A DNA stretch of 64,000 nucleotides from Massilia rubra (lineage in GTDB: Bacteria > Pseudomonadota > Gammaproteobacteria > Burkholderiales > Burkholderiaceae_D): NCBI RefSeq assembly GCF_011682065.1, contig NZ_VUYU01000033.1, positions 1-64,000 on the forward strand. Direction: 5' to 3'. The notes under the pieces are model-generated. The model worked only from the letters and a program-made list of their open reading frames with translations, did not search any database and had not been told where the DNA came from. Position numbers and translations under genes: made by a program. Of the stretch, positions 402 through 14,606 are shown in pieces; the stretch's first letter is position 1; each line of letters begins with the position of its first letter.

Positions 402-477
<76 letters not shown>

Positions 478-495
478 GTCCGTCGAAGAAGCAGA

Positions 496-523
496 ATTAT
501 ATACTAGGGCTTGCAATATGCAA
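496..523 (-). promoter_or_regulatory. Sigma-70-type promoter of the tRNA operon
   Basis: On the minus strand a -35 element TTGCAT (523-518) and a perfect -10 TATAAT (501-496) are separated by 16 bp. The -10 lies 18 bp upstream of the tRNA-Ala 5' end. The promoter fills the short gap between the gltX stop and tRNA-Ala, so the tRNAs probably have their own start in addition to any readthrough from gltX. Confidence 0.8.
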
Positions 524-541
524 AGCCCCGGGAAAAACAAT

Positions 542-1951
542 TTATACGGCAGCGTTCAGGCGCGACAGAACCAGTTCGCGACCCAGCAGCACCAGCACCG
601 CATCGATGGCCGGCGTTTGCAACTGGCCAGTCAGCAAGAGGCGCAGCGGCATCGCCAGGACCGGCATCTTGATCGTGTTAGCGGCAAGCACTTCCTTGAT
701 CATCGCGGCCAGCGCTTCGCGCGTCCATTCAAGCGTGGCGCAACGCTCGGCAAACTGCGCCAGCGCCGGCTTGACCGCATCGGTCAGGTGCTGGGCCATC
801 AGGGCGGCGTCCGGCTGCGGCGTGCGGTAGAACAGCATGGCGGCGTCCGCCAGTTCGTTGATGGTATTGGTGCGGTCCTTCATCAGCGCCAGCGCGTCGG
901 CCAGTTCCGGCGCGCCGTCGAACTGGGCGCCCTGCGCTTCCATGCGCGGACGCGCCAGTGCGGCCAGGCGGGTGTTGTCGGCTTGCTTGATATAGTGGTT
1001 GTTCACCCACGCCAGTTTTTCCAGGTCGAACTGGGCTGGCGACGACGTCAGGTGATCGGTATTGAACCATTCGCAGAACTGCTGCATCGAGAACACTTCA
1101 TCGTCGCCGTGGCTCCAGCCCAGACGCGCCAGGTAGTTCAGCAACGCTTCCGGCAGATAGCCCATGGCGGGATAGTCCATGATGTTGACCGGAACAACTT
1201 TCTCCCCTTTATCGCGCTTGGAAATTTTCTTGCCATCCGAACCGTGGATCATCGGCAGGTGGCCGTACTGCGGCAGCGGTGCGCCGATGGCATTGAGAAT
1301 ATTGATCTGGCGTGGGGTGTTATTCACATGGTCGTCACCGCGCAGCACGTGGGTGATCTGCATGTCCCAGTCATCGACCGCGACGCAGAAGTTATAGGTC
1401 GGCACGCCGCCCGGACGGGCGATCACGAGGTCGTCCAGTTCCTTGTTGCCAATCGTGATCGGTCCCTTGACCACGTCATTCCAGGTGACATCGCCGTCGA
1501 GCGGATTCTTGAAGCGCACCACGGGCTCACGGTCGGCCGGGATGGTAGGCAAGGTCTTGCCCGATTCCGGACGCCAGGTGCCGTCGTAACGCGGCTTTTC
1601 GCCGGCGGCCGTGAAGCGTTCGCGCATGGCGTCGACTTCTTCCTTGGAAGAATAGCAGTGGTAGGCGGTACCGGCTTCGAGCATCTGGGCCAGTACTTCG
1701 CGGTAACGGTCCATGCGCTGCATCTGGTAGAACGGGCCTTCGTCATGGCTCAAACCGAGCCACTGCATGCCCTCGATGATGGCCTGCACGGCTTCCGGCG
1801 TCGAACGCTCGACGTCGGTGTCTTCGATGCGCAGCACGAAGGTGCCGCCGAAATGGCGGGCGTATGCCCAGCTGTAGAGTGCGGTGCGGGCGCCGCCAAG
1901 GTGGAGGTAGCCGGTCGGGCTGGGGGCAAAACGGGTGCGGACGACGGTCAT
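542..1951 (-). CDS. gltX: Glutamate--tRNA ligase
   Basis: Cytoplasmic class I aminoacyl-tRNA synthetase of 469 residues that charges tRNA-Glu with glutamate using ATP. The class I HIGH signature appears near the N-terminus as [13 protein letters not shown] and the KMSKS signature as KKISKRDKG. The C-terminal half has the helical anticodon-binding region usual for bacterial GluRS, and the length is typical. The start at 1951 ([14 protein letters not shown]) was chosen because it matches the conserved N-terminus; an upstream in-frame extension to 2158 lacks conserved features. The downstream neighbours are two tRNA-Glu genes. I cannot decide from the sequence whether the enzyme is discriminating or non-discriminating. 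Confidence 0.97.
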
Positions 1952-2454
1952 GGGATCGGTATGCTGAGATAAAGAGAAGTATTTTACAGCGTCGCCGCCG
2001 CGCCGTGCCAGAGACGGCGGACGCCTTACTGCCATGCGTGCTCCGGGTGCCGATTCTCGAACAGGCTGCGACAAATTCGTATTCTCTTGAGATCGCACAA
2101 GGGCGCATCTGGCCACGTGAACCTTTGAGCATCCGCAAGCGTGACCAATTAGGCTCATACCGGCCCGCTCTCACGCGCGTTTTTAGCCGCGTATGCCAGT
2201 GCAACGATCACCGGCTGGTCGCATTGCGCCCGTAACACCTCCTCGATCGAACAGTACAAGCGAACCGCCAACGGAGGTAGCCTTTCTCCTGGCCGCTCAC
2301 TGAAGCTGACACCACTGCGGGTTCCCGCCTGAGTCACCGCAACACCCGAGCGGCGGCGGCGCGCTATCGTCCGCACGTATGCCCCTCACCGTAGAGCACC
2401 CCTGCGGGCATCCCCGCGCTTCCCGGCCGGAAGCCATCTCACAGGGAACACACC
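1952..2454. other. Intergenic region between divergent gltX and the haloperoxidase
   Basis: About 500 bp separate the divergent genes. It must hold the promoters of both, but no convincing -35/-10 pair was found. Open frames crossing it have no recognisable family content. No tRNA, hairpin-T-run or repeat family of this window is present. Confidence 0.5.
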
Positions 2455-3957
2455 ATGAAACGACGCACCTTCCTGACGATCGGCGGCGCTGCCGCCATCG
2501 GCAATGCGCTGACGGCCTGCGGCGGCGGCTCCCACAACCCGCCTCCTTCGCAACCACCACCGGAGCCGACCCAATCGGGCACGGTTACTGGCTGGAACAA
2601 CCAGGCGCTTGATGCCGTGCGCGCCGTGCGCATGGCGCCGCCCATGGCCGCGCGTGCGGTCGCGATCATTCACAGCGCCATGTACGAGGCCTGGGCCGCC
2701 TATGACAATGCCGCGCTCGGACAGTACCTGGGCGCACAATTGCGCAGGCCGGCTGCGGAGCGCACGGCGGCCAATAAGGCGAAGGCCATGAGCTTTGCCG
2801 CCTATGCCGCCCTGCTCGATCAGTTTCCTGGCCAGCAAGCCGCTTTCACCGCCTACCTTGCCACGCTCGGCAGCCGCCCGATCGACGCCTACAACAACAC
2901 GGCCCCGGCCCCACGCCTTGGCACCATTGCAGCCCAGGCGGTGCTCGACAAGCGCCGCGACGACGGCGCCAACCAGGGCGGCACAATGGCGCCGGGCGGC
3001 ACCCCGTTCGCCGACTACAGCGGCTACGTGGCACGCAATCCTCCGCTGCTGGTCATCCAGCCCACGCCACGCAGCAACATCGTGGCCCCCGACCGCTGGC
3101 AACCGCTCTCGTTCAACGATGCCGCCGGCGTACGCCGCACCCAGAGCTTTCTTGCGCCGTTCTGGGGCACGGTGCACCCGTTTGCGCTCACCTCGGGCAG
3201 CCAGTTCCGCCCACCCCCACCTGCCGCCTTCGGCACCCAGGAATTTATCGACCAGGCAACCGAGATCGTGCAAATCCAGGCCGTCCTGACCGAGCGCCAG
3301 AAGGTCATCGTCGACTTCTGGGCCGGCGGCGCCAGCGGCGAATTGCCCGGTTCCTACTGGTGCCGCTTTGCCCAGTTGATTTCCGCGCGCAAAAACTACA
3401 CCGATGATGACGACGTGAAACTGTTTTTCGCACTCACCAACGCGGTACTCGATGCCAGCATTGCCGCCTGGGACGCCAAGCGCGCCTACGATTCCGCACG
3501 CCCGATTACCGCGATCCGCTACCTGTTCAACGGGCGCATCGTCCAGAGCTACGGCCCCGCAGGACCGGCCGGCGGGCTGCACCCGGTCCCCGGCGAGGCC
3601 TGGATGCCCTTCTATCCGCCGAGCGCGCCGACGCCCGCCTTTCCTGACCATGTTTCCGGACACAGCACCTTCAGCGCGGCCTCGGCCGACGTGCTGCGCC
3701 GCTTTACCGGCAGCGATCTGTTCAGGCATGCGGTCACCATCCAGGCACGTTCCCTGCTGATCGATCCGGGCCTGCCCACTACCCCCGTCACCCTTGCATG
3801 GGAGACCTTCACCGATGCCGTCATCGAGGCCAGCGCCTCGCGCGTCTACGCCGGCATTCACTTCGAGCGCGCCAGCGACGACGGCCGCACGCTCGGCACC
3901 CAGGTGGGCGCCACCGCGTTCGCACGCGCCCGCGCACTCTGGACCGGCAACGCCTAA
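2455..3957 (+). CDS. Exported vanadium-dependent haloperoxidase family protein
   Basis: A 500-residue protein of the vanadium haloperoxidase / PAP2-type phosphatase superfamily, which uses bound vanadate and peroxide to oxidise halides, or acts as a phosphatase. All expected active-site residues are visible with the spacing of fungal chloroperoxidase: Lys342 and Arg349 (AKRAYDSARPITA), Ser401-Gly402-His403 (DHVSGHSTFS), and Arg463 with the metal-ligating His469 (SRVYAGIHFE). The N-terminus MKRRTFLTIGG looks like a twin-arginine signal and is followed by a lipobox-like LTAC and a Gly/Pro-rich linker, so the protein is probably exported, perhaps as a Tat lipoprotein. Substrate (bromide, chloride, iodide or none) cannot be told. 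It stands alone, upstream of the SWIM operon. Confidence 0.88.
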   Translation: MKRRTFLTIGGAAAIGNALTACGGGSHNPPPSQPPPEPTQSGTVTGWNNQALDAVRAVRMAPPMAARAVAIIHSAMYEAWAAYDNAALGQYLGAQLRRPAAERTAANKAKAMSFAAYAALLDQFPGQQAAFTAYLATLGSRPIDAYNNTAPAPRLGTIAAQAVLDKRRDDGANQGGTMAPGGTPFADYSGYVARNPPLLVIQPTPRSNIVAPDRWQPLSFNDAAGVRRTQSFLAPFWGTVHPFALTSGSQFRPPPPAAFGTQEFIDQATEIVQIQAVLTERQKVIVDFWAGGASGELPGSYWCRFAQLISARKNYTDDDDVKLFFALTNAVLDASIAAWDAKRAYDSARPITAIRYLFNGRIVQSYGPAGPAGGLHPVPGEAWMPFYPPSAPTPAFPDHVSGHSTFSAASADVLRRFTGSDLFRHAVTIQARSLLIDPGLPTTPVTLAWETFTDAVIEASASRVYAGIHFERASDDGRTLGTQVGATAFARARALWTGNA

Positions 3958-4317
3958 CGCGCCGCCGCGTGCTGCCAGGCCGCAGGCGGCAGCCTGGCAG
4001 CGGACGCTTGACCTGGTCACACCGGATGCGACCGCCCGGACGCGACGCGCCACGGCCTGGCGCCTCGAGATTGATGTCAGCCGCTTATCACCACCCCGAT
4101 CTCCCCCTTCTTGACGCCGCCGCGTGCAATACACAGTCGCCCGTCACCTGGAACGACACCGCGCAATCGGCCACCAGCCTACGCCCACCGCATCAAGCGC
4201 CGGGATGGCTGACCCGCCAGTTCAGCAAAAAGGACTTCCCAAAACGGCCACCAACGGTTAACTTACTATCTTTAATCATTTGCCAACGGTCTTTGGCCGC
4301 GGGCATTGTTCCTCTCC
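3958..4317. other. Intergenic region upstream of the SWIM-MoxR-VWA operon
   Basis: A gap of 360 bp in which I see no credible gene. It contains the strong hairpin at 3972-4000 and presumably the promoter of the downstream five-gene operon, but no clear -35/-10 pair was identified. Confidence 0.5.
3972..4000 (+). terminator. Strong hairpin after the haloperoxidase gene
   Basis: CTGCCAGGC and GCCTGGCAG form a perfect 9-bp stem around an 11-nt loop, 14 bp after the haloperoxidase stop codon. No T-run follows, so it may be a mRNA 3' stabiliser or a weak or Rho-assisted terminator. Confidence 0.45.
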
Positions 4318-5673
4318 ATGACTTTGAACGCCGATCAAATCCTCGCACTGGCGCCCGATGCGAGTTCCGCCAAAGCCGGCAGCCAGCTGGCCGGACCCGC
4401 CAAGTGGGGCAACTTGGGCCGGACCGACAGCGCCGTGTGGGGCGAATGCCAGGGCAGCGGCAAAGTCCCCTACCGCACCCAGATCGACCTCGGCGAACCC
4501 GCCTTCAAGTGCTCCTGCCCGAGTCGCAAGTTTCCCTGCAAGCATGGCATCGGCCTGTACCTGCTACTAGCCGGCAACGGCCCGCTGTTCGCAGCCGCCG
4601 CGCCGCCGCAGTGGGTGAGTGACTGGCTCGACAGCCGCCAGCAACGCACCGAGAAAAAACTCCAGAGCGCCGCCGAAAAAGCCACCGGCACCACGCCCGA
4701 GCAAGCCGCCGCACAAGCGGCCGCCGCGCAAAAGCGCGAGGAAAAGCGCGACAACAAGGTTGCAGCCGGCATCGTCGAACTGCAAACCTGGCTGGAAGAC
4801 CTGGCGCGCGAGGGCTTGTCGACCCTGCGCGCGCGCGGCCCGTCTTTCTGGAACGACATTGCCGCCCGCATGGTCGACGCCCAGGCCGGCGGCCTGGCTG
4901 CGCGCCTGCGCCGCGCCAGCGGCATGTGCTTCGATACCAATCTGCCCGACTGGGAAACCCGGCTGGCGCGCGAACTGGCCTCGATCTACCTGCTCGGCAG
5001 CGCCTGCCGCCGCCTGCCGGAGCTGGCGCCGGAACTGCAAAGCGACGTGCGCGCCTTGGTCGGCTGGACCGTCAGCCAGGAGGACGTACTGGCCCAGGCC
5101 GGCGTACAGGACCGCTGGCAGGTGCTGGCCCAGCACACCAGCGACAACGACCGCGTGCGCGCACGCACAAGCTGGCTGCGCGGGCAAGCAAGCGGGCGCT
5201 GGGCCATGATCTTGCAATACGCCGCCGGCAGCGCGGGCTACGACAAGGTGCTCGCCCCCGGCACCCGGTTCGACGGCGAACTGTGCTTCTACCATAGCGC
5301 TTACCCGCTGCGCGCCCTGATCAAGCAGCAGGATGCCTTCGGCACGCTCGACACAACGCTGGCGCCCGCCCCCACCCTGGACGCCTCGCTGGCCGCGTAC
5401 GCCGACGCCCTGGCGCGCAACCCCTTCATCGAGCGCTTTCCACTGCTGCTCGACGCCGTGGTGCCGCACGCCGGCAAAGCGCCCCACCTTGCCTGCGCCG
5501 ATGGCCGCATTCTGCCGCTGCACGCGCTGTTTCGCCACCTGTGGCCGCTGCTCGCGCTCAGCGGCGGCCACCCGGTCACGGTGATGGGCGAGTGGGACGG
5601 CTACGCCATCGTCCCGCTCGCCGTTTTCGCCGAAAGCCGCTTGCATCATTTTGACAATGAGACCGTAGCATGA
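4318..5673 (+). CDS. SWIM zinc finger domain protein
   Basis: A 451-residue protein that opens a five-gene operon. Around residues 60-75 it has a SWIM zinc-finger signature, CSCPSRKFPCKHGIGLYLL (C-x-C, then C-x-H), a fold known to bind nucleic acid or protein. After it comes a Lys/Glu/Ala-rich segment (about 100-150) that is probably helical or coiled-coil, then a long region with no other recognised domain. The ATG at 4318 was preferred to a TTG four codons upstream because the family-like sequence starts there; no strong Shine-Dalgarno motif is visible. Its stop overlaps the next start as ATGA, implying translational coupling. It probably supplies a binding or recognition function to the downstream ATPase-VWA pair (inference). 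Confidence 0.85.
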   Translation: MTLNADQILALAPDASSAKAGSQLAGPAKWGNLGRTDSAVWGECQGSGKVPYRTQIDLGEPAFKCSCPSRKFPCKHGIGLYLLLAGNGPLFAAAAPPQWVSDWLDSRQQRTEKKLQSAAEKATGTTPEQAAAQAAAAQKREEKRDNKVAAGIVELQTWLEDLAREGLSTLRARGPSFWNDIAARMVDAQAGGLAARLRRASGMCFDTNLPDWETRLARELASIYLLGSACRRLPELAPELQSDVRALVGWTVSQEDVLAQAGVQDRWQVLAQHTSDNDRVRARTSWLRGQASGRWAMILQYAAGSAGYDKVLAPGTRFDGELCFYHSAYPLRALIKQQDAFGTLDTTLAPAPTLDASLAAYADALARNPFIERFPLLLDAVVPHAGKAPHLACADGRILPLHALFRHLWPLLALSGGHPVTVMGEWDGYAIVPLAVFAESRLHHFDNETVA

Positions 5674-7313
5674 GTTCCCCGCTCCCGATAAAAATCCATC
5701 AAACCCTGCAGATCGGTACCTCGCGCGCCGCGCCCGGTTTCGACGAGGACTTGCCGCTGGCCCTGCGCGACAGCGTGCGCAGCCGTCCCGGCGCGAACGC
5801 CGCCCCGCAAGAGGAAAACCTGTGGCTCTCGCTGGCCGCGCACGCCCTGTGGCAGCGCGCCGGCTGCCAGCCCGACAGCGCCGGGTCAGTCCCGCCCATG
5901 ACACCGTCCGGCGACAGCGATGCCTTGCGGCCCTGCCCGGCCCAAGCCGAAAAGGCGCTGGCGCTGTTGCTGCTCGATGAATATCCGCAAGTGCGCCCCG
6001 AATGGCTGCGGCTGGCCAACGCCCACCGCTGCCGCCTGCCGCCGCGCCTGCTGCCGGGCGTGCTCGACCTGGGCACCTCGCAGCGCCCCCTGCGCACGCT
6101 GATCGAAGGCGTGCTCGGCGCGCGCGGGCACTGGCTGGCGCAGCAAAATCCCGATTGGAACTGGGTCGGCGCCGACACCAGCGACATGCGCGTAGGCGAC
6201 ATGCGCGTAGGCGATGTTCAGGCATTGTGGGAAGACGGCAATATCGAACAGCGCGCGCAGGCCCTGCGCGACATGCGCGTAGGCGACGTGCGCGTAGGCG
6301 AGGCCGGCGCCGCCCTGCTGGCCCTGCAAGCGACCTGGACCAACGAAACGCCGGAACACCGCGCCACCCTGCTCGGCTGCCTGTCGGTCGGCCTGAGCCT
6401 GGCCGACGAAGCTTTCCTGGAAAGCGCGCTCGACGACAAGCGCAAGGAAGTGCGCACCGTGGCGCAGCGCCTGCTGGCCGGCCTGCCCGGCGCGCAACTG
6501 GCAATGCGCATGCGCGAACGCGCCATGCCGCTGCTGCGCGTCGAACGCAACGGCGATACGGCCCACCTGCTGGCCGAGGTGCCGCAAGAGCGCGACAAAA
6601 GCATGCAGCGCGACGGCGTCGGCGCCGGCCTGTACCCCGCCATGGGCGAAAAATCGGGCTGGCTGGTCGATATCCTGGCCGCCGTGCCGCCGACGCACTG
6701 GTCGAGCACCTTCGATGCCTCGCCACGCGCCTGCCTGGCACTGGCCATGGCCAGCGAATTCAAACATACCTTGCTGCTGGGCTGGTCGAGCGCGCTGCAG
6801 CGCAGCCTGCAAGCCGGCTACGATGCCGGCCTGCACGCATGGTTCACCGCCTTCCTCGACCTGTACCTGAAATCGACCGGCATCCACACCCACATGCCGC
6901 GCGACTTCTTCAGCCTGTTCGGTGCCCTGCCGCCGGACGCCGCCGACGACTTGCTGCGCACCCTGGTCGAGGCCACCCCGGCTGCCTGGATGCGCGCCCA
7001 TTCGAGCCTGATCGACCTGCTCGACGATGCCGCCAAGAATGCCAAGCGCAACTGGCCGCTGGACTTGTCCAAGGCGGTGGTCGGCCGCATCCAGGCCGGT
7101 TGCGCGGCCAACACGCTGCAAAGCTGGTCGCTCAGCTACACCATGGCCACGCTGGCGCTGGTACTCGACCCGCTTGGGATCGAGGACTACGAAAACGGCT
7201 GGCCGAAAGACATCCCCGAGTTTGCGCAGTGGGAAGAGACGGTCGATAAATTCCTGCGCACCCTGCGTTTCCGACACGATATGTACTTACCTTTTCAGGA
7301 GCACTCTGCATGA
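5670..7313 (+). CDS. DUF5691 family protein
   Basis: A 547-residue, Ala/Leu-rich, probably all-helical protein that I recognise as DUF5691-like from its N-terminal part (a 'GTSRA' segment, then EENLWLSLAAHALWQRAG) and from its neighbours. It has no catalytic motif or signal peptide. Long stretches look like helical-repeat scaffold sequence. It overlaps the SWIM gene before it and the MoxR gene after it by ATGA, so the proteins are likely made in coupled amounts. Around residues 170-210 it carries four copies of an in-frame pentapeptide (DMRVG or DVRVG), encoded by 15-bp DNA repeats. Role unknown; an adaptor between the ATPase and the other subunits is plausible. Confidence 0.75.
   Translation: MSSPLPIKIHQTLQIGTSRAAPGFDEDLPLALRDSVRSRPGANAAPQEENLWLSLAAHALWQRAGCQPDSAGSVPPMTPSGDSDALRPCPAQAEKALALLLLDEYPQVRPEWLRLANAHRCRLPPRLLPGVLDLGTSQRPLRTLIEGVLGARGHWLAQQNPDWNWVGADTSDMRVGDMRVGDVQALWEDGNIEQRAQALRDMRVGDVRVGEAGAALLALQATWTNETPEHRATLLGCLSVGLSLADEAFLESALDDKRKEVRTVAQRLLAGLPGAQLAMRMRERAMPLLRVERNGDTAHLLAEVPQERDKSMQRDGVGAGLYPAMGEKSGWLVDILAAVPPTHWSSTFDASPRACLALAMASEFKHTLLLGWSSALQRSLQAGYDAGLHAWFTAFLDLYLKSTGIHTHMPRDFFSLFGALPPDAADDLLRTLVEATPAAWMRAHSSLIDLLDDAAKNAKRNWPLDLSKAVVGRIQAGCAANTLQSWSLSYTMATLALVLDPLGIEDYENGWPKDIPEFAQWEETVDKFLRTLRFRHDMYLPFQEHSA
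6181..6297 (+). repeat. 15-bp in-frame repeats inside the DUF5691 gene
   Basis: The unit GCGACATGCGCGTAG occurs at 6181-6195, 6196-6210 and 6268-6282, and with one change (GCGACGTGCGCGTAG) at 6283-6297. Each unit encodes D-M/V-R-V-G, and a degenerate half unit follows. The copies form two tandem pairs 57 bp apart. Because units are multiples of three, copy number could vary without breaking the frame. Confidence 0.9.
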
Positions 7314-8401
7314 CCGCCATTTCTACCATCCTGCGCCAGCACGCCGAAACGCAGTACGCCGAGGAACTCGCAGCGCTGGCCGCAGCCGATACGCGCCAGC
7401 GTCCGCCGCGCTGGAAGCTGTCGCCCTGGGCCGTGTCCAAGTACTTGCTGGGCGGCACGCTCGACAATGGCGTGGAAATCAGCGCTAAATATATCGGTAA
7501 TGCGCGCATCATCGAGATCGCCGTCGCCACTCTGGCGACCGACCGCGCCCTGCTGCTGCTCGGCGTGCCTGGCACGGCCAAGTCGTGGGTGTCGGAACAC
7601 CTCGCTGCCGCCATCAGCGGCGATTCAACCATGATCGTGCAGGGAACCGCCGGCACCAGCGAGGAAGCGGTGCGTTTCGGCTGGAACTACGCGCAGTTGC
7701 TGGCCAAGGGGCCGTCGATGGAAGCGGTGGTGCCGAGCCCGATCATGCGCGCCATGCGCGACGGCAAAATCGCCCGGGTGGAAGAATTGACCCGCATCCC
7801 GAGCGAAGTGCAGGACAGCCTGATTACCATCCTGTCGGAAAAAATGCTGCCGATCGCCGAACTCGACGACGAAGTGCTGGCGCAAAAAGGCTTCAATATC
7901 ATCGCCACCGCGAACGATCGCGACCGTGGCGTGAATGAACTGTCGAGCGCGCTCAAGCGCCGCTTTAACACCGTGGTGCTGCCGCCCCCGGCCACCGCCG
8001 ACGAGGAAGTGCGCATCGTCGAAACCCGCGTGGCCAGCCTCGGCCGCGCGCTGGAGTTGCCGGGCGAAGTGCCGGCGCTGGAAGAAATCCGCCGTGTCGT
8101 CACGGTGTTTCGCGAACTGCGCGCCGGCGTCACCACTGACGGCAAGCGCAAGATCAAGGCGCCCAGCGCCAGCATGAGCACGGCCGAAGCGATTTCGGTC
8201 ATTACCAACGGCATGTCGCTGGCCGCCCACTTCGGCGACGGCACCATGCGCGGCGCCGACGTGGCCGCCGGCATGATCGGCGCCATCGTCAAGGACCCGG
8301 TCCAGGACCGCGTGGTCATGCTGGAATACCTCGAAACCGTGGTCAAGGAACGCGAAGGCTGGAAAGACCTGTACCGGGCCTGCCGCGACGTGATGAATTG
8401 A
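7310..8401 (+). CDS. MoxR-type AAA ATPase
   Basis: A 363-residue cytoplasmic AAA+ ATPase of the MoxR group, which typically remodels a client together with a VWA protein. Visible motifs: Walker A GVPGTAKS at residues 85-92; a Walker B-like element ARVEELTRIP at about 155-164, where the usual Asp-Glu pair reads Glu-Glu (158-159); sensor-1 Asn202 in IIATANDRDRG; and an arginine-finger segment ALKRRFN. A clear AGGAG precedes the ATG, which overlaps the DUF5691 stop (ATGA). The gene for the matching VWA protein is two genes downstream. The unusual Walker B may be a feature of this subfamily rather than a defect. Confidence 0.9.
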   Translation: MTAISTILRQHAETQYAEELAALAAADTRQRPPRWKLSPWAVSKYLLGGTLDNGVEISAKYIGNARIIEIAVATLATDRALLLLGVPGTAKSWVSEHLAAAISGDSTMIVQGTAGTSEEAVRFGWNYAQLLAKGPSMEAVVPSPIMRAMRDGKIARVEELTRIPSEVQDSLITILSEKMLPIAELDDEVLAQKGFNIIATANDRDRGVNELSSALKRRFNTVVLPPPATADEEVRIVETRVASLGRALELPGEVPALEEIRRVVTVFRELRAGVTTDGKRKIKAPSASMSTAEAISVITNGMSLAAHFGDGTMRGADVAAGMIGAIVKDPVQDRVVMLEYLETVVKEREGWKDLYRACRDVMN

Positions 8402-8408
8402 CTGGCCG

Positions 8409-10715
8409 ATGAGCGTTCATTTATTCGGCATCCGCCACCACGGTCCGGGCTGCGCGCGCAGCCTGGCGCAAGCCCTGCAGGCGCTGCAACCGGACTGCAT
8501 CTTGATCGAAGGCCCGCCCGAGGCCGACGAGCTGATCGCCTTTGCCGCCGATCCGGCCATCAAGCCGCCGGTCGCGCTGCTGGTCTACGTGCCGGCCACG
8601 CCGCAGCGCGCCGTGTTTTACCCATTCGCCGAGTTCTCGCCGGAATGGCAAGCCATGCGCTACGCCACCGCCAACGGCGTGCCGGTGCGCTTTTGCGACT
8701 TGCCGCAGACGCATCGTTTGGCCGAAGAGGAAGTTGCCGGGGCCGCTACAGCCGGGACCGGCGAGGATGAGGACAAGGACGAGGGCGCGCAAGCGCCGCC
8801 CGACACCGGGACCGGGACCGACACCGACACCGACGCGCTGCACCAGGACCCGCTGCACTGGCTCGCCCAGGCCGCCGGTTTCTCGGACACCGACACCTGG
8901 TGGGAGCACCTGGTCGAGCAGCGCACCGACAGCCTCGACCTGTTCGCCGCCATCGCCGAAATGATGACCACGGTGCGCACCGACATCGCCGCCCCGCCCG
9001 ATCTGCGCGAGCAGCAGCGCGAAGCATGGATGCGCAACGCCATCCGCCTGGCCGAAAAACAGGGCCACCAGCGCATCGCCGTGGTCTGCGGCGCCTACCA
9101 CGTGCCGGCGCTGGCTAGCATGCCGTCCGCTAAGAGCGACAACGACTTGCTCAAGGGCTTGCCCAAGGTAAAACTGGCCGCGACCTGGACCCCATGGAGC
9201 TATGGCCGCCTGGCGTTTCGCAGCGGCTACGGAGCGGGGGTCAGCGCGCCCGGCTGGTACCATCATATGTGGAACCACCCGGCCCAGGCCAGCCTGTACT
9301 GGCTGACCGACGTCGCCATTTTGCTGCGCAAGCACGACCTTGATGCGTCCTCGGCCAGCATCATCGAAGCGGTACGCCTGGCCGATACGCTGGCGGCGAT
9401 GCGCGAACGCCCCCGTCCGGGCCTGAGCGAGTTGCAGGAAGCGGTACGCGCCGTGTTTTGCTACGACAGCGACGCCCCGCTGCGCCTGATCCACGACGCC
9501 CTGCTGATCAACGACCGCCTGGGCGAGGTGCCTGAAGGCGTGCCCACCCTGCCGCTGTCGCAGGATGTGCAGACCCAGCAAAAACGTCTGCGCCTGCCGG
9601 TCAAGGCCGATCACAGCCAGCTCGAACTCGACCTGCGCCAGCCGGCGCACCTGGAAAAAAGCGTGTTGCTGCACCGCCTGGCGCTGCTCGGGGTCGAATG
9701 GGGCCGCGCCGAAAGGGTGACCGGCAAGTCCGGCACCTTCCACGAATGGTGGCGCCTGGCGTGGGAGCCGGAATTTGCGATTCGCCTGATCGAAGCGAAC
9801 GTCTGGGGCGGCACCGTGGAAGCGGCCGCCACCGGCAAGGCGGTCAGCCAGGCCAATGAAGCCACCACCCTGCCCGAGCTGACCGCCCTGATCGAACAGG
9901 TGCTGCTGGCCGACCTGCCGCAGGCGGTCGACTTGCTGATGCGGCGCATCCAGGAAGTGGGCGCGTTGACGCCCGATGTCGGCTTCATGCTGGCGGCCTT
10001 GCCGCCGCTGGCGGGCGTACTGCGCTACGGCAGCGTGCGCGGCACCGATACCAGCGCCATTGGCCAGGTGGTGGACGGCCTCGTCACGCGCGCCTGCATC
10101 GCCCTGCCCTTCGGCGTGCTGGGCATGGCCGACGAGCCGGCGGCGGTGCTGGTCAAGCAGCTCATCGCCGCCGACCGCGCGATCCGCCTGATCCAGGACC
10201 AAGCACTGCTGGATGCCTGGTTCGACGCGCTCGACCAGGTGGCGGGCAATGAACTGTCGCATCCGCTGATCAGCGGGCGCTGCGCGCGCATTTTGTCGGA
10301 GCAAGGGCATTGGGACCAGGAGCGCACCGCGCGCGCCCTGGCCTTGCGCTGCTCGCACGCCAGCGCGCCGCTGGCCAGCGGCAACTGGCTGGAAGGCTTT
10401 TTGCAGGGTAGCGCAGCCTTGCTGCTGCACAACGACAGCCTGTGGACCCTGGTCAATACCTGGATCAACGGCCTCGATGCGGAGAGCTTCGTCGAACTGC
10501 TGCCGCTGCTGCGCCGCACTTTTGGCGCGTTCGAGGCGCCGGAACGGCGTCAGCTGAGCGAACGCGCCGGCAGCGCCGGGGGCGCGGTCGGCATCGCCGC
10601 GCCAGGCGGCAACATCGATGAAGCGCGCGCCCGGCTGGTGTTGCCGGTGCTCGGCATGATCCTCGGCAGCGCAGTGACATCGGCATCGACAACGGAGGCC
10701 CATCATGGCGCATGA
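8409..10715 (+). CDS. DUF5682 family protein with TraB/Tiki-like motifs
   Basis: A 768-residue cytoplasmic protein that I recognise as DUF5682-like by sequence style and operon context. Its N-terminal 240 residues contain FGIRHHGPG (His10-His11), LIEGPPEADEL (Glu34) and AVVCGAYHVPAL (His231). The order H..., ...EGP..., ...GA-x-H-V-P resembles the TraB/PrgY/Tiki/ChaN-type fold, whose members are putative metal-dependent hydrolases. That assignment is my inference and not established here. Between residues about 115 and 145 there is an acidic Thr-Asp/Gly-Thr low-complexity linker. The C-terminal 500 residues are helical with no known motif. It starts 7 bp after moxR and overlaps the VWA gene by 11 bp. 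Confidence 0.8.
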   Translation: MSVHLFGIRHHGPGCARSLAQALQALQPDCILIEGPPEADELIAFAADPAIKPPVALLVYVPATPQRAVFYPFAEFSPEWQAMRYATANGVPVRFCDLPQTHRLAEEEVAGAATAGTGEDEDKDEGAQAPPDTGTGTDTDTDALHQDPLHWLAQAAGFSDTDTWWEHLVEQRTDSLDLFAAIAEMMTTVRTDIAAPPDLREQQREAWMRNAIRLAEKQGHQRIAVVCGAYHVPALASMPSAKSDNDLLKGLPKVKLAATWTPWSYGRLAFRSGYGAGVSAPGWYHHMWNHPAQASLYWLTDVAILLRKHDLDASSASIIEAVRLADTLAAMRERPRPGLSELQEAVRAVFCYDSDAPLRLIHDALLINDRLGEVPEGVPTLPLSQDVQTQQKRLRLPVKADHSQLELDLRQPAHLEKSVLLHRLALLGVEWGRAERVTGKSGTFHEWWRLAWEPEFAIRLIEANVWGGTVEAAATGKAVSQANEATTLPELTALIEQVLLADLPQAVDLLMRRIQEVGALTPDVGFMLAALPPLAGVLRYGSVRGTDTSAIGQVVDGLVTRACIALPFGVLGMADEPAAVLVKQLIAADRAIRLIQDQALLDAWFDALDQVAGNELSHPLISGRCARILSEQGHWDQERTARALALRCSHASAPLASGNWLEGFLQGSAALLLHNDSLWTLVNTWINGLDAESFVELLPLLRRTFGAFEAPERRQLSERAGSAGGAVGIAAPGGNIDEARARLVLPVLGMILGSAVTSASTTEAHHGA

Positions 10716-11862
10716 CATCACCCCGCAGGAACAAACGCGCCGCTGGCGCATGGTATTGGGCAGCGAGCCGGGCCAGCCGGAAGTCTCGCTCGGCGTGGAC
10801 GACCTGGCCATGGACCGGGCGCTGTCGGCCCTGTACAACCCGCCGTCGGGACGCGGCGCCGGGCTCGGGGCGTCGGCGCCGAACGTATCGCGCTGGCTGG
10901 GCGACATCCGCCAGTATTTTCCATCGAGCGTGGTGCAGGTGATGCAGAAAGATGCGCTGGAGCGGCTGGGACTGGAGCAAATGCTGCTGGAACCCGAGAT
11001 GCTCAAGGCGGTCGAGCCGGACGTGCACCTGGTCGCCACCCTGCTCAGTTTGAACAAGGTGATGCCGAACAAGACCAAGGAAACCGCGCGCATGGTGGTG
11101 CGGCAAGTGGTGGAAGAACTCGAGCGCAGGCTGGCCAGTCCGTTCCGGCAAGCGGTGACGGGGAGTTTGAACCGGGCCACGCGCAACCGTCGCCCGCGCC
11201 ATCACGAAATCGACTGGCTGCGCACGATCCGCGCCAATTTGCGGCATTACCAGCCCGAGTACCGGACCATTATTCCGGAAACGCGGATCGGGTTCGGGCG
11301 CAAGGGGCAATCGCTGCGCGATATCGTGCTGTGCATCGACCAGAGCGGATCGATGGCGCCGTCGGTGGTGTACGCCAGCGTGTTCGCGGCGGTGCTGGCC
11401 ACGATCAAGGCGGTCAGCACGCAGGTGGTGGTGTTCGATACGGCGGTGATCGACCTCACGCCGCTGCTGGCCGATCCGGTCGATGTGCTGTTCGGTACGC
11501 AGCTGGGTGGCGGGACGGATATTAATCGGGCGCTCGGGTATTGCCAGGGTTTGATCTCACGGCCGACCGATACCATTTTCGTGCTGATCAGCGATTTGTA
11601 CGAGGGTGGGAATAATAACGAGATGCGCAGGCGCGCGGCGGCGCTGGTGGCGGCCGGGGTGCAGGTCATTGTGCTGCTGGCGCTCGACGATAACGGGGCG
11701 CCAAGTTATGACCACGCGAATGCGGCGTATTTTGCCGCGCTGGGGGCGCCGTGTTTTGCGTGTACGCCGGATTTGTTCCCGGAGCTGATGGCGGCGGCGA
11801 TCAAGCGCAGTGACTTGGGACAGTGGGCGGCCGAAGTGGGAATTGTGGGAGTGAAGCCGTAA
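10705..11862 (+). CDS. VWA domain protein, CoxE-like
   Basis: A 385-residue protein whose C-terminal half (about residues 205-380) is a von Willebrand factor A domain with a complete MIDAS metal site: Asp212-x-Ser214-x-Ser216 in CIDQSGSM, the Thr of GGGTDIN, and the Asp of ISDLYEGG. The N-terminal half is helical, as in CoxE-like partners of MoxR ATPases. It is the last gene of the operon, overlapping DUF5682 by 11 bp, with a GGAGG-type Shine-Dalgarno inside the end of that gene. It probably binds client proteins and couples them to the MoxR ATPase. A REP-type inverted repeat begins 2 bp after its stop codon. Confidence 0.88.
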   Translation: MAHDITPQEQTRRWRMVLGSEPGQPEVSLGVDDLAMDRALSALYNPPSGRGAGLGASAPNVSRWLGDIRQYFPSSVVQVMQKDALERLGLEQMLLEPEMLKAVEPDVHLVATLLSLNKVMPNKTKETARMVVRQVVEELERRLASPFRQAVTGSLNRATRNRRPRHHEIDWLRTIRANLRHYQPEYRTIIPETRIGFGRKGQSLRDIVLCIDQSGSMAPSVVYASVFAAVLATIKAVSTQVVVFDTAVIDLTPLLADPVDVLFGTQLGGGTDINRALGYCQGLISRPTDTIFVLISDLYEGGNNNEMRRRAAALVAAGVQVIVLLALDDNGAPSYDHANAAYFAALGAPCFACTPDLFPELMAAAIKRSDLGQWAAEVGIVGVKP

Positions 11863-11863
11863 T

Positions 11864-11948
11864 CGTCGTTCCCGCGCAGGCGGGAACCCAAGTTTCGTGC
11901 TCACCGAGTGCGCTAAATACTTGGGTTCCCGCCTGCGCGGGAACGACG
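11864..11948. repeat. REP-type inverted-repeat pair, copy 1
   Basis: Two inverted arms of about 29 bp (CGTCGTTCCCGCGCAGGCGG... and its complement) face each other around a spacer of about 27 bp. Each arm contains its own small palindrome, TTCCCGC-GCAG-GCGGGAA. It starts 2 bp after the VWA stop codon and lies between convergent genes, so it may also act as a bidirectional transcript end. Related pairs occur at 39580 and 44697. Confidence 0.9.
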
Positions 11949-12011
11949 GTGACGGCAATGCCAGGAAGTCGTTTCGGGCAATGCCAGAAACGACGGATCG
12001 CGGGTTGGCGC

Positions 12012-13211
12012 CTACGGCGCGATCGAATTCGCCTCATACGCACCGATATCGAGCACGCCGGTTACCGGGCGGCCGACCCAGAACGCCACATGCTTGTACT
12101 GCGCCACCGGCTTGAGCACATAGCCACTGGCCGACACGCCCGGATCGCTCCCGGCATTGACCACCAGCGGCGACGGCGTCGGCCGCAAATCATACGTCGC
12201 CCGGTTCACGAACCCTGGCGCCACCGAGCGGTAATTGGTCTTGGCCACCGTACTGACCTGCGAACTCAAGGTTCCGATCCCCGAAAAGATATTATTCTGC
12301 AGCAGAACCGGCTTGGTCACGCCCGCGCCCACCATCACGAACACGCCGCGCGCGGTATCATCGTTGAGGAAGGTGTTATTGACCACATACAGATCATGCC
12401 CTGCGTTGGACGCCCCCTCTTCTCCATACGCCAGCATGGCCCCGTTTTGATTGGCCGCCGGCTGCTGGATCACATTCCCGATCACGTACGAGGTACCGGC
12501 ATTCGGCAAGTCGATCTCGTAACTCGGCTGGCCGGCCGCGGTCGAACCGGTTTCGCCCGGGCGCAGGCTGGAAAAGCGGTTATACAGAATATAGTTGGTC
12601 AGCGCGCGCGACTTGAGGTTATGCCCCACATTGGCGTCATGCGAAAAATTGCGGCGGAACATCAGGCTGCGCACCGTGCCGATATACAGGTTGTGGGTCT
12701 GCCCGGTCCCGTAACCATTGCGTCCGAATTCGGTGCCTTCGATAAGCACATCGCTGGCCGCATTCGCGCCGCTGAGAATGCCGTTTTCGTTATCGTGCAG
12801 GAAGCTGTTGAGCAAGGTAAAGCCCGCGCCCTCCAGACGCAAGGCTGCGCCGTTTCGGTCAGGCACCTTGGCCCCGTACATCTCCACGTTGGCGATCAGC
12901 ACGTTGTTGCCGACCACCACCCAGATTGCTTTCCCCATCGCATTCTTGCCTGCGGCATCGATTTTCGGACGACCGTTCACGCCCCGGATGGTGAAGTTGC
13001 TGGCATAAATGCCGCACACGTCGCCGCTGTAGACCACGCCACCTTCGATCTCGACGGTGTCGCCATTCTTCGCCGCGGCAATCGCGGCGCAGGGTTTGGC
13101 GTAGGTCTTGCCCGGTCCGACCGACAGCAGCGCCGCCGAGGCGGACGCCTGTACGCCGAATACCGCCACCGCCGACACGCAAGCCGTGCGCAGAATAGTT
13201 TTGTTAATCAT
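12012..13211 (-). CDS. Secreted right-handed beta-helix protein
   Basis: A 399-residue exported protein with a Sec signal peptide (residues 1 to about 26, MINKTILRTACVSAVAVFG... ending ASASA). The mature part is rich in short Asn/Val/Ile/Gly strands such as NFTIRGVNG, NVLIANVEMYGA, LLNSFLHDNENGI and LYVVNNTFLND, the pattern of parallel beta-helix (pectate-lyase-like) repeats. The family acts on polysaccharides or serves as surface adhesin; no catalytic set can be identified here. The start at 13211 was chosen because AGGAGA precedes it and the signal peptide begins there; the longer frame to 13289 is unlikely. It stands alone. Confidence 0.8.
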   Translation of the reverse strand: MINKTILRTACVSAVAVFGVQASASAALLSVGPGKTYAKPCAAIAAAKNGDTVEIEGGVVYSGDVCGIYASNFTIRGVNGRPKIDAAGKNAMGKAIWVVVGNNVLIANVEMYGAKVPDRNGAALRLEGAGFTLLNSFLHDNENGILSGANAASDVLIEGTEFGRNGYGTGQTHNLYIGTVRSLMFRRNFSHDANVGHNLKSRALTNYILYNRFSSLRPGETGSTAAGQPSYEIDLPNAGTSYVIGNVIQQPAANQNGAMLAYGEEGASNAGHDLYVVNNTFLNDDTARGVFVMVGAGVTKPVLLQNNIFSGIGTLSSQVSTVAKTNYRSVAPGFVNRATYDLRPTPSPLVVNAGSDPGVSASGYVLKPVAQYKHVAFWVGRPVTGVLDIGAYEANSIAP

Positions 13212-13337
13212 TTTTTTGTCTCCTGGGAGCAGGTGGACGCACCAACGCATCTCCTGCGAAAAATCAACTGGGAATATGACCATTGTCAATGCGTCATGCG
13301 GCGTATGGTAACCGCAAGCCGTCGATTCTACGAGGAT

Positions 13338-13367
13338 ATGAGCGGGGCGAGCGCGCCCCAGCGCCGC
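13338..13367 (-). terminator. GC-rich hairpin after the binding-protein gene
   Basis: Directly after the stop of the upstream minus-strand gene, GGGGCG-CGCT-CGCCCC forms a perfect 6-bp stem, with outer GAGC/GCTC pairing. No T-run follows. It could be a weak terminator or an mRNA 3' structure. Confidence 0.35.
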
Positions 13368-14162
13368 TCAGGGCACCTGGACGTTGTAGCGCTTGCCGAG
13401 TTTGCGCAGTTCGCCGCTGTCGACGTAGGCATTGAAGGCGCGGTCGAACCGCGCACGCATGACGTCGTATTCGGGACGCTTGGGGAAGGCAAAGAAGCCG
13501 CGCTGCAGGGAAATGGTGCGCCCGACCGGAAACACTTTGCCTTCCAGCGCCAGCAGTGGAATGACCGGCTCGGTATTACGCACATTGCTGGCAAATAAAT
13601 CCACGCGCCCGTGCGAGAGCATGGTCAGCGCCGACTCGACCGAATTGGTCACGCTGACCGTCAATTGCTCGCGCGCGCCATTGAATTCATCCCCGTAAGC
13701 CCAGCCGTTGATGATCACGATGCGCTTCTCGCGCAAGGACGCGTAGCTGCCGTCCCAGGCAAACGGCGCATTGCTGCGCGAGAAGAACACCATCTGATCC
13801 TGGTAAAACGGACGTTCGGAAAACGCAAACGAGGCCAGCCGTTCAGGCGACTTGTAGGGGCCGACGAGAATATCGGCCTGGCCCTGCGCCACCATCGACT
13901 GCGCGCGCGCCCACGGGTACAGCTCGAAATACACCGGTTGCCCGAGTTCGCCGGCAATGGCGCGGATGATCTCGACCGCCATGCCCGAGAATTCGCCGTT
14001 GGCGCGCTCGTACACCCGCGCGAAATGGGCGCCGACGACCAGCAGTTCGCGCGGACCGGAACGGGCTGTGGCGACCGGCATGGCGAGCGCCGCCGCCGCA
14101 CCGAGCATCAGGGCGCGCCGGGCAATATCGACGGGGGAATCGGAGCGCTTCATGGCAGCCAT
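13368..14162 (-). CDS. Periplasmic solute-binding protein (type II PBP, SBP_bac_3-like)
   Basis: A 264-residue protein with an N-terminal signal (MKRSDSPVDIARRALMLGAAAALAMPVATA) that contains a loose twin-arginine-like stretch. The rest matches amino-acid-type periplasmic binding proteins: LLVVGAHFARVYERANGEFSG, a GMAVEIIRAIAGELG segment, WARAQSMVAQGQADILVGPY, and a C-terminal FNAYVDSGELRKLGKRYNV. Length is typical. There are no adjacent ABC permease or ATPase genes, so it may be an orphan binding protein or a sensor. Starts at 14162 or 14153 are both possible. Confidence 0.82.
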   Translation of the reverse strand: MAAMKRSDSPVDIARRALMLGAAAALAMPVATARSGPRELLVVGAHFARVYERANGEFSGMAVEIIRAIAGELGQPVYFELYPWARAQSMVAQGQADILVGPYKSPERLASFAFSERPFYQDQMVFFSRSNAPFAWDGSYASLREKRIVIINGWAYGDEFNGAREQLTVSVTNSVESALTMLSHGRVDLFASNVRNTEPVIPLLALEGKVFPVGRTISLQRGFFAFPKRPEYDVMRARFDRAFNAYVDSGELRKLGKRYNVQVP

Positions 14163-14210
14163 TGTTCAGACGATAAAACAATTGTACTGCCGCCAGCGCT
14201 CACGGGGGAA

Positions 14211-14606
14211 TTACTTGACGGTCACTTTAATCGACTTGCTCATCGGCGTGCCGTAGGACTGGTGCGCACCGTTGGCAAACTGCATGGTCAGGGTGTATTC
14301 GCCGGGCGCCAGCTTGACCTCGGTCTCGGTCTGGCCTTTGCCGAAGTGCAAGTGCTTGTCGTCGAAGGGAATCGACTCGCCTTCCTTGATGGCGCCGCCG
14401 TTGATGACCAGGTGATGATGGCCGGAATTGGCGACCGGCGCGCCGGCCGGCTTGACATCCATGCCGTCCACGGCGAACTTGACCTTGAACGGGCTTTTGA
14501 CGGTCGCGCCGTCCGCCGGCTCGACGAAGGAGACCGATTGCGCCGACGCGGCGGCGGCGACCAGCAGGGAGGCGGAAAAGACGAGGTGCTTGATGAACGA
14601 TTTCAA
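14211..14606 (-). CDS. DUF4399 domain periplasmic protein
   Basis: A 131-residue exported protein with signal peptide (MKSFIKHLVFSASLLVAAAA, cleavage near ASAQS). The mature part shows the DUF4399 pattern: VSFVEPADGATVKSPFKVKF, the His-rich NSGHHHLVINGG, DDKHLHFGKGQTE, and LAPGEYTLTMQFANGAHQSYG. It is a small beta-sandwich-like domain of unknown function; the clustered His residues suggest metal binding, which is an inference. Transcribed alone on the minus strand between mrp and the binding protein. Confidence 0.85.
   Translation of the reverse strand: MKSFIKHLVFSASLLVAAAASAQSVSFVEPADGATVKSPFKVKFAVDGMDVKPAGAPVANSGHHHLVINGGAIKEGESIPFDDKHLHFGKGQTETEVKLAPGEYTLTMQFANGAHQSYGTPMSKSIKVTVK

Follow-up and report, generated by a model that had tools for sequence, protein, structure and literature searches.

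Gene organization of the locus

The stretch of DNA analysed here (the window) comprises positions 1 to 64,000 of contig NZ_VUYU01000033.1 of Massilia rubra, which is contig 45 of the 7.57-Mb genome. A check of its open reading frames revealed five co-directional genes at positions 4318–11862 of the forward strand, encoding a SWIM zinc-finger protein, a DUF5691 protein, a MoxR-type AAA+ ATPase, a DUF5682 protein and a CoxE-type von Willebrand factor A (VWA) protein. The SWIM gene (4318..5673, 451 amino acids; Pfam SWIM, E=2.6e-4) was read from an ATG start, its longest possible start being a TTG at 4306. It overlaps by 4 bp with the DUF5691 gene (5670..7313, 547 amino acids; Pfam DUF5691, E=2.7e-113), whose product is predicted to be HEAT/ARM-like and helical, and this gene in turn overlaps by 4 bp with that of the YehL-related MoxR protein (7310..8401, 363 amino acids; Pfam AAA_5, E=4.2e-37). 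A gap of 7 bp precedes the DUF5682 gene (8409..10715, 768 amino acids; Pfam DUF5682, E=2.7e-271), which overlaps by 11 bp with the VWA gene (10705..11862, 385 amino acids; Pfam VWA_CoxE, E=1e-51). The initial annotation, made from the sequence alone, had described the same five frames and spacings, and Pfam supports all five of its family assignments.

Distribution and co-inheritance of the five genes

The distribution of the system was surveyed by scanning GTDB contigs with a DUF5682 profile and retaining the loci nearest to the window protein, which were the best 80 of at least 567 relatives. According to organism names, these loci belong to the Pseudomonadota, Cyanobacteriota, Chloroflexota, Bacteroidota, Verrucomicrobiota, Acidobacteriota, Planctomycetota, Armatimonadota and Desulfobacterota. 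Another 46 loci were added to the survey, among them L154, which is the same stretch as survey locus L067. The order SWIM-DUF5691-MoxR-DUF5682-VWA was kept in 96 of the 126 loci (65 of the 80 survey loci and 31 of the 46 extra ones). The order in the other 15 survey loci, many of them short contigs, was rearranged or incomplete within the locus. This conservation of gene order is far beyond chance, and its recurrence in distant phyla bears out the expectation of the initial annotation that the five genes would co-occur outside the genus.

DUF5691 and DUF5682 were also found together in Bacteroidota. DUF5682 was present in 7 of 198 genomes and DUF5691 (E≤0.001) in the same seven, six of them above the curated cut-off, while one further genome had a sub-cut-off DUF5691 match. 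The hypergeometric probability of this co-occurrence is 5e-13 (7/7), or 4e-12 with the eighth genome counted; in two of the seven genomes, the DUF5691 and DUF5682 genes are located on different contigs. Among unselected Pseudomonadota genomes, 12 of 299 carried DUF5682. Over 67 loci, the distance matrices of the five proteins correlated with r of 0.72–0.86, while permutations gave 0.119 at most. This fits inheritance as a block, without telling co-evolution apart from a shared history of the species.

In the plasmid collection, records from Deinococcus and Nonomuraea also have all five genes. Plasmid carriage was seen in 36 of 72,556 records, and three or more of these exceed 2.6 Mb. A scan of viral contigs for DUF5682 gave zero confirmed relatives. 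The only phage match among 50,697 records was a DUF5682-like frame (28.6% identity, 93% covered) at 10644–12758 of MT835988.1, a 14-kb record labelled Bacteriophage sp. and obtained from human faeces.

Three versions of the system

The window genome contains three MoxR-DUF5682-VWA-SWIM systems, referred to here as types A, B and C. Type A is the system of the window, with DUF5691. Type B (contig 29, L008) is orthologous to yehLMPQ of Escherichia coli and has two genes of the WGR-DUF4132 kind upstream, and type C (contig 41, L007) has DUF4132-like genes upstream. Using a profile, DUF4132 was found in 10 of the 12 type B/C loci (L004, L007, L008, L108, L112, L118, L119, L120, L122 and L123), lying downstream rather than upstream in L123. 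The remaining two comprise L121, which is cut by a contig end, and L109, in which an annotated DUF4132 gene was missed by the profile. A profile search detected DUF5691 in none of these 12 loci. Both partners occurred together in 7 of the 80 survey loci, all Bacteroidota by name, with L077 being partial. Because type B/C systems have DUF4132 in place of DUF5691, the shared core is made up of four proteins (MoxR, DUF5682, VWA and SWIM), with DUF5691 and DUF4132 as alternative large partners; the five-part set of the initial annotation is narrowed accordingly. Homology between DUF5691 and DUF4132 was considered and is not claimed, as hhalign gave E=0.024 and a probability of 2% over a HEAT-like stretch only.

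Of 5426 complete E. coli genomes, 5301 carry yehLMPQ, and in 5162 the match extends over at least 80% of the query. In the E. coli locus L004, WGR and DUF4132 genes (yehF–yehI, 475–7912) lie directly upstream of yehLMPQ, and a transposon insertion in the metG/DUF4132/yeh region has been reported in ST131 (PMC9334617). The description of the window system as undescribed was therefore too strong: yehLMPQ has four of its five kinds of part, and YehL is listed as one of seven MoxR subfamilies in a published study (PMC3893208). Already known are thus MoxR-VWA systems with partners as a kind, the name of the YehL subfamily and the four-gene version of E. coli. One open literature collection was searched, in which we found no function for yehLMPQ, no mention of DUF5682 or DUF5691 and no text combining "SWIM zinc finger" with MoxR; two or more of yehL, yehM, yehP and yehQ were named together only in genome-sequence or strain papers. 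Likewise, the five-gene DUF5691 form, its range, the DUF4132/DUF5691 exchange, the adjacency to RNA-repair genes and the cargo slot described below were not found in the literature searched, which did not cover the 2016 RNA-repair survey.

Features of the encoded proteins

The MoxR protein possesses a complete set of AAA+ residues, including the Walker A lysine K91, the acidic Walker B pair E158 E159 (EE rather than DE), the sensor N202 and the arginine-finger residues R217 R218. All of these are shared without exception by the type A (111 of 111) and type B/C (10 of 10) homologues (125 aligned, 4 of unassigned type being untallied). The protein also matches Pfam bpMoxR with 28.9 bits against a cut-off of 27, over 52 residues only. 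Its relation to E. coli YehL is indicated by a phmmer score of 245 bits and by the same three adjoining partner families rather than by a tree of the seven subfamilies; the type B MoxR of the same genome is a clear YehL orthologue (584 bits). Among solved structures, seven PDB sequences were matched, NorQ among them, and the best matches were the AAA modules of Midasin. Midasin is a ribosome-assembly remodeller with its own MIDAS (metal ion-dependent adhesion site) domain, and the likeness may serve as an analogy, not as a test of function. The MIDAS site of the VWA protein is intact (D212, S214, S216, T271 and D297). Its D, S, S and D do not vary among the 104 type A and 9 type B/C homologues tallied, and its T is kept in 101 of 104 and 9 of 9, respectively (117 aligned, 4 untallied). 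A PDB sequence search returned zero matches for the VWA protein among solved structures.

For DUF5682, AlphaFold2 predicted an N-terminal alpha/beta domain followed mostly by helices or helical repeats (mean predicted local distance difference test score of 90.5). The residues of the N-terminal motifs (GIRHHGP, LIEGP, SPE, D97, RE and GAYH) hardly vary among 107 type A and 10 type B/C homologues (128 aligned, 11 untallied). Two GxxH motifs at strand ends and a Glu after another strand may correspond to the signature of the TIKI/TraB/EreA/ChaN superfamily. The sequence likeness is weak, with Pfam TraB_PrgY_gumN matching 2 of 13 DUF5682 members at a best E=0.0057, below cut-off. The DUF5682 profile gave a single match among solved structures (E=0.59), and no TIKI-, TraB-, EreA- or ChaN-named chain was present among the 50 structures listed for DUF5682, a list that excludes nothing. 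The window protein is 90% identical to the DUF5682 protein of Massilia frigida (L022).

All 104 type A homologues retain the SWIM finger residues (C65, C67, C74 and H76). Beyond the finger, the C-terminal region aligns with the YehQ-type SWIM proteins of types B/C over 274 columns (hhalign E=0.0014, probability 17.5%), which suggests, and does not prove, a common descent of the two. Homology of the type A SWIM protein with DUF5691 was also tried and rejected (hhalign E=0.39). The DUF5691 protein is predicted to be helical with HEAT/ARM-like matches, showing the successive helix pairs and HEAT-type similarity of a HEAT/ARM solenoid. A helical DUF5691, an AAA+ ATPase, a MIDAS-bearing VWA protein and a putative hydrolase-like DUF5682 had all been proposed in the initial annotation; the AAA+ and MIDAS residues are intact, the helices are predicted, and the candidate active site of DUF5682, with which it may act as an enzyme, is nearly invariant. 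Within the DUF5691 gene of the window, four in-frame copies of a unit of ~15 bases, arranged in two pairs, were observed at 6181–6307. They encode MRVGD- or VRVGD-like residues and are absent from the M. frigida relative L022.

SWIM and DUF5691 form a single reading frame of about 1000–1100 amino acids in 15 of the 44 Hymenobacteraceae-group loci that have both, and in 1 of 97 elsewhere. This group comprises the family sample, named from containing the Rufibacter L086 genome, together with L086, L105, L110 and L124. In the fusion frame of L105, Pfam supports the DUF5691 half only and the SWIM half is recognized by our own profile. Evidence on contact among the five proteins consists of these fusion frames only, and a single complex of all five may be envisaged.

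RNA-repair genes and a possible mode of action

RtcB was first noticed on clustering of neighbouring genes, in four loci that each belong to a different phylum. A scan of 177 loci, some partial, with single-sequence seeds, by which weak relatives can be missed, identified RtcB, RtcA, RlaP, Hen1 or Pnkp in the fetched flank of eight (L051, L082, L094, L097, L112, L124, L179 and L191). The RNA-repair genes are upstream in all eight and on the same strand in five. For 40 loci, L179 and L191 among them, the fetched sequence extended further upstream than downstream, a bias towards an upstream position that does not apply to the other six. Four arrangements look like operons: RtcB-RtcA-49 bp-SWIM in L097, Hen1-Pnkp-RlaP-RlaP-192 bp-SWIM in L124, RlaP-like frames-RtcB-168 bp-SWIM in L179, and RtcB-RlaP-RtcA-one gene-SWIM in L094. 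L112 contains a type C system, with RtcB upstream of its DUF4132 gene. Pfam confirmed the RNA-repair genes of L094, L097, L051, L082, L112 and L124, and those of L179 and L191 were identified by phmmer only. Across the flanks of the 80-locus survey (871 kb), 4 loci have RtcB, whereas its density in 46 of the genomes would predict 0.33 (P=4e-4), an exploratory value given that the RNA-repair families joined the scan only after being noticed.

The initial annotation had left roles in stress, metal insertion and defence all open, and the evidence leans to RNA damage and repair. As a tentative and possible reading, the best of those considered, we propose an ATP-driven MoxR-VWA remodeller coupled to the handling of RNA damage and repair, acting on damaged RNA or RNA-protein complexes. 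The SWIM and HEAT-like DUF5691 proteins, one frame in some relatives, would recognize the substrate, which the VWA protein would connect to the MoxR ring through its MIDAS site. The ring would then spend ATP on pulling or reshaping the substrate, and the two-part DUF5682, with its candidate metal-hydrolase site, might cleave or release something. Broken ends would thereby be open to ligases such as RtcB or Pnkp-Hen1.

Several results weigh against this proposal. No RNA-repair gene was present in the fetched flank of 169 of the 177 loci, and a phmmer scan of the whole 64-kb window found neither RNA-repair genes nor DUF4132, the RtcB and RlaP genes of the window genome being on other contigs. 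None of 25 added Planctomycetota and Chloroflexota DUF5691 loci adjoins RNA-repair genes. Among unselected genomes, RtcB was present in 5 of 12 DUF5682-positive versus 69 of 287 other Pseudomonadota (P=0.18) and in 5 of 7 DUF5682-positive versus 87 of 191 other Bacteroidota (P=0.25), neither difference being significant. The phylogenetic profile of RtcB was therefore rejected as support and counts against the proposal, its presence in 46 of 46 surveyed genomes coming from a sample biased to window relatives and large genomes.

Variable cargo and alternative functions

The junction between the MoxR and DUF5682 genes exceeds 450 bp in 38 of 41 Hymenobacteraceae-group loci versus 10 of 117 elsewhere. 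The corresponding counts are 0 of 44 and 2 of 97 for SWIM-DUF5691, 0 of 44 and 3 of 100 for DUF5691-MoxR, and 6 of 16 and 5 of 110 for DUF5682-VWA. In L160–L199, the MoxR-DUF5682 junction is a variable cargo slot in Hymenobacteraceae. Pfam was used to scan 20 insert proteins, 15 of them from this group, where SUKH-1 (SMI1/KNR4) occurred in four, four were without a match, and DUF6985, DUF1963, DUF6414, a restriction endonuclease (REase)-like, a RusA-like, a 2-oxoglutarate oxygenase and a pyridine-nucleotide oxidoreductase protein occurred once each. The five inserts elsewhere comprised DUF4241 (L094), a DNA methylase (L047), a transposase (L057), a weak TPR match (L091) and no match (L046). 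SUKH proteins are toxin-immunity proteins, and SUKH-type cargo gives weight to a conflict setting. In Hymenobacter radiodurans L110, the DUF5682 gene is annotated as three overlapping frames (12001–14272) and looks broken or mis-sequenced; the plasmid locus L105 resembles L110, with many neighbouring proteins in common, and lacks the split.

A conflict system against phage or rival bacteria, with the variable cargo as immunity or effector modules, appears unlikely. It would account for the SUKH-1, DUF6985, DUF1963 and REase-like cargo, and MoxR-VWA ternary conflict systems have been described (PMC7159879), with the window MoxR passing the bpMoxR cut-off. However, the cargo is found mainly in one family, and a search of the five proteins against the PADLOC 2023 models gave 0 families at E≤0.01, so that the system does not qualify as a known anti-phage one. 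No defence gene was noticed in the recurrent neighbour clusters, which were read by eye with no PADLOC scan of the flanks. Most defence genes are not near-universal within a species, as yehLMPQ is in E. coli (5301/5426). The viral scan and the single match in 50,697 phage records argue in the same direction. The RNA and conflict readings are compatible, because many rival toxins cleave RNA.

A chaperone for enzyme maturation, comparable to NorQD or CoxDE and inserting a metal or cofactor into one dedicated enzyme, is also unlikely. The VWA domain is of the CoxE type, NorQ is one of the PDB sequences matched by MoxR, and several MoxR proteins act in enzyme activation (PMC3893208), but no gene for an enzyme was conspicuous as a regular neighbour among up to four genes on each side in 83 loci. 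Clusters recurring in at least four loci, named from their first residues, were response-regulator-like, ABC-F, AraC, RtcB and one Comamonas/Chitinimonas family. A general stress or DNA-damage chaperone with incidental RNA-repair neighbours is very doubtful: yeh-type versions carry WGR or DUF4132 proteins, and in Deinococcus radiodurans one DUF4132 gene and one WGR gene are reported to respond when the DNA-damage repressor DdrO is lost (PMC8533742), but no recurrent DNA-repair neighbour was noticed in the clusters read by eye, and a crude test found no CTG-N10-CAG site in the 370 bases before the window operon.

The RNA-damage remodeller may also be cast more broadly, in a form that we consider rather unlikely as a whole. 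The window system would then be the founding example of a widespread RNA-damage response machine that parallels Midasin in kind in bacteria. Its MoxR ring, working with a MIDAS adaptor, a SWIM-HEAT reader and a TIKI-like hydrolase, would strip damaged RNA-protein complexes or open them to several interchangeable RNA-repair ligases. Some lineages would add exchangeable immunity cargo, and a DUF4132-type version would be present in nearly all E. coli.

Comparison with known systems

Among known systems, the MoxR-VWA ternary conflict systems resemble the window locus in combining a MoxR AAA+ protein, a VWA protein and additional components, and the window MoxR is over the bpMoxR cut-off. They differ in their third components (VMAP, iSTAND, FtsH and beta-propeller), to which none of the five proteins has a Pfam match, and the main text of Kaur et al. 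2020 (PMC7159879) does not contain the words SWIM, YehL, RtcB, SUKH or WGR. NorQ-NorD, RavA-ViaA and CoxD-CoxE likewise combine a MoxR ring with a VWA adaptor, whereas the window system includes three further conserved genes, and a constant client gene was not seen beside it. Each of those pairs serves a single enzyme or membrane target.

Bacterial RNA-repair cassettes (RtcB-RtcA, Pnkp-Hen1 and RlaP) adjoin the system in a minority of loci, and the five proteins have no Pfam match to their ligase, kinase, cyclase and end-modifying families. Bacterial RNA repair has been described mainly as a matter of end-healing and sealing enzymes; if the proposed role is true, ATP-driven remodelling would join them.

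The yehLMPQ-type system is present in almost every E. coli, with relatives in about nine to ten phyla and no role found in the literature searched. One MoxR-DUF5682-VWA-SWIM core and its apparent link to RtcB, RtcA, RlaP and Pnkp-Hen1 would give this orphan system a specific, testable function. Compared with the window locus, E. coli yehLMPQ lacks DUF5691, has WGR and DUF4132 genes (yehF, yehH and yehI) upstream, places the SWIM gene last instead of first, and encodes a DUF5682 protein of only 26% identity. In common with it, MoxR, DUF5682, VWA and SWIM are encoded in one run with comparable junctions, namely a 10-bp gap and overlaps of 8 and 4 bp.

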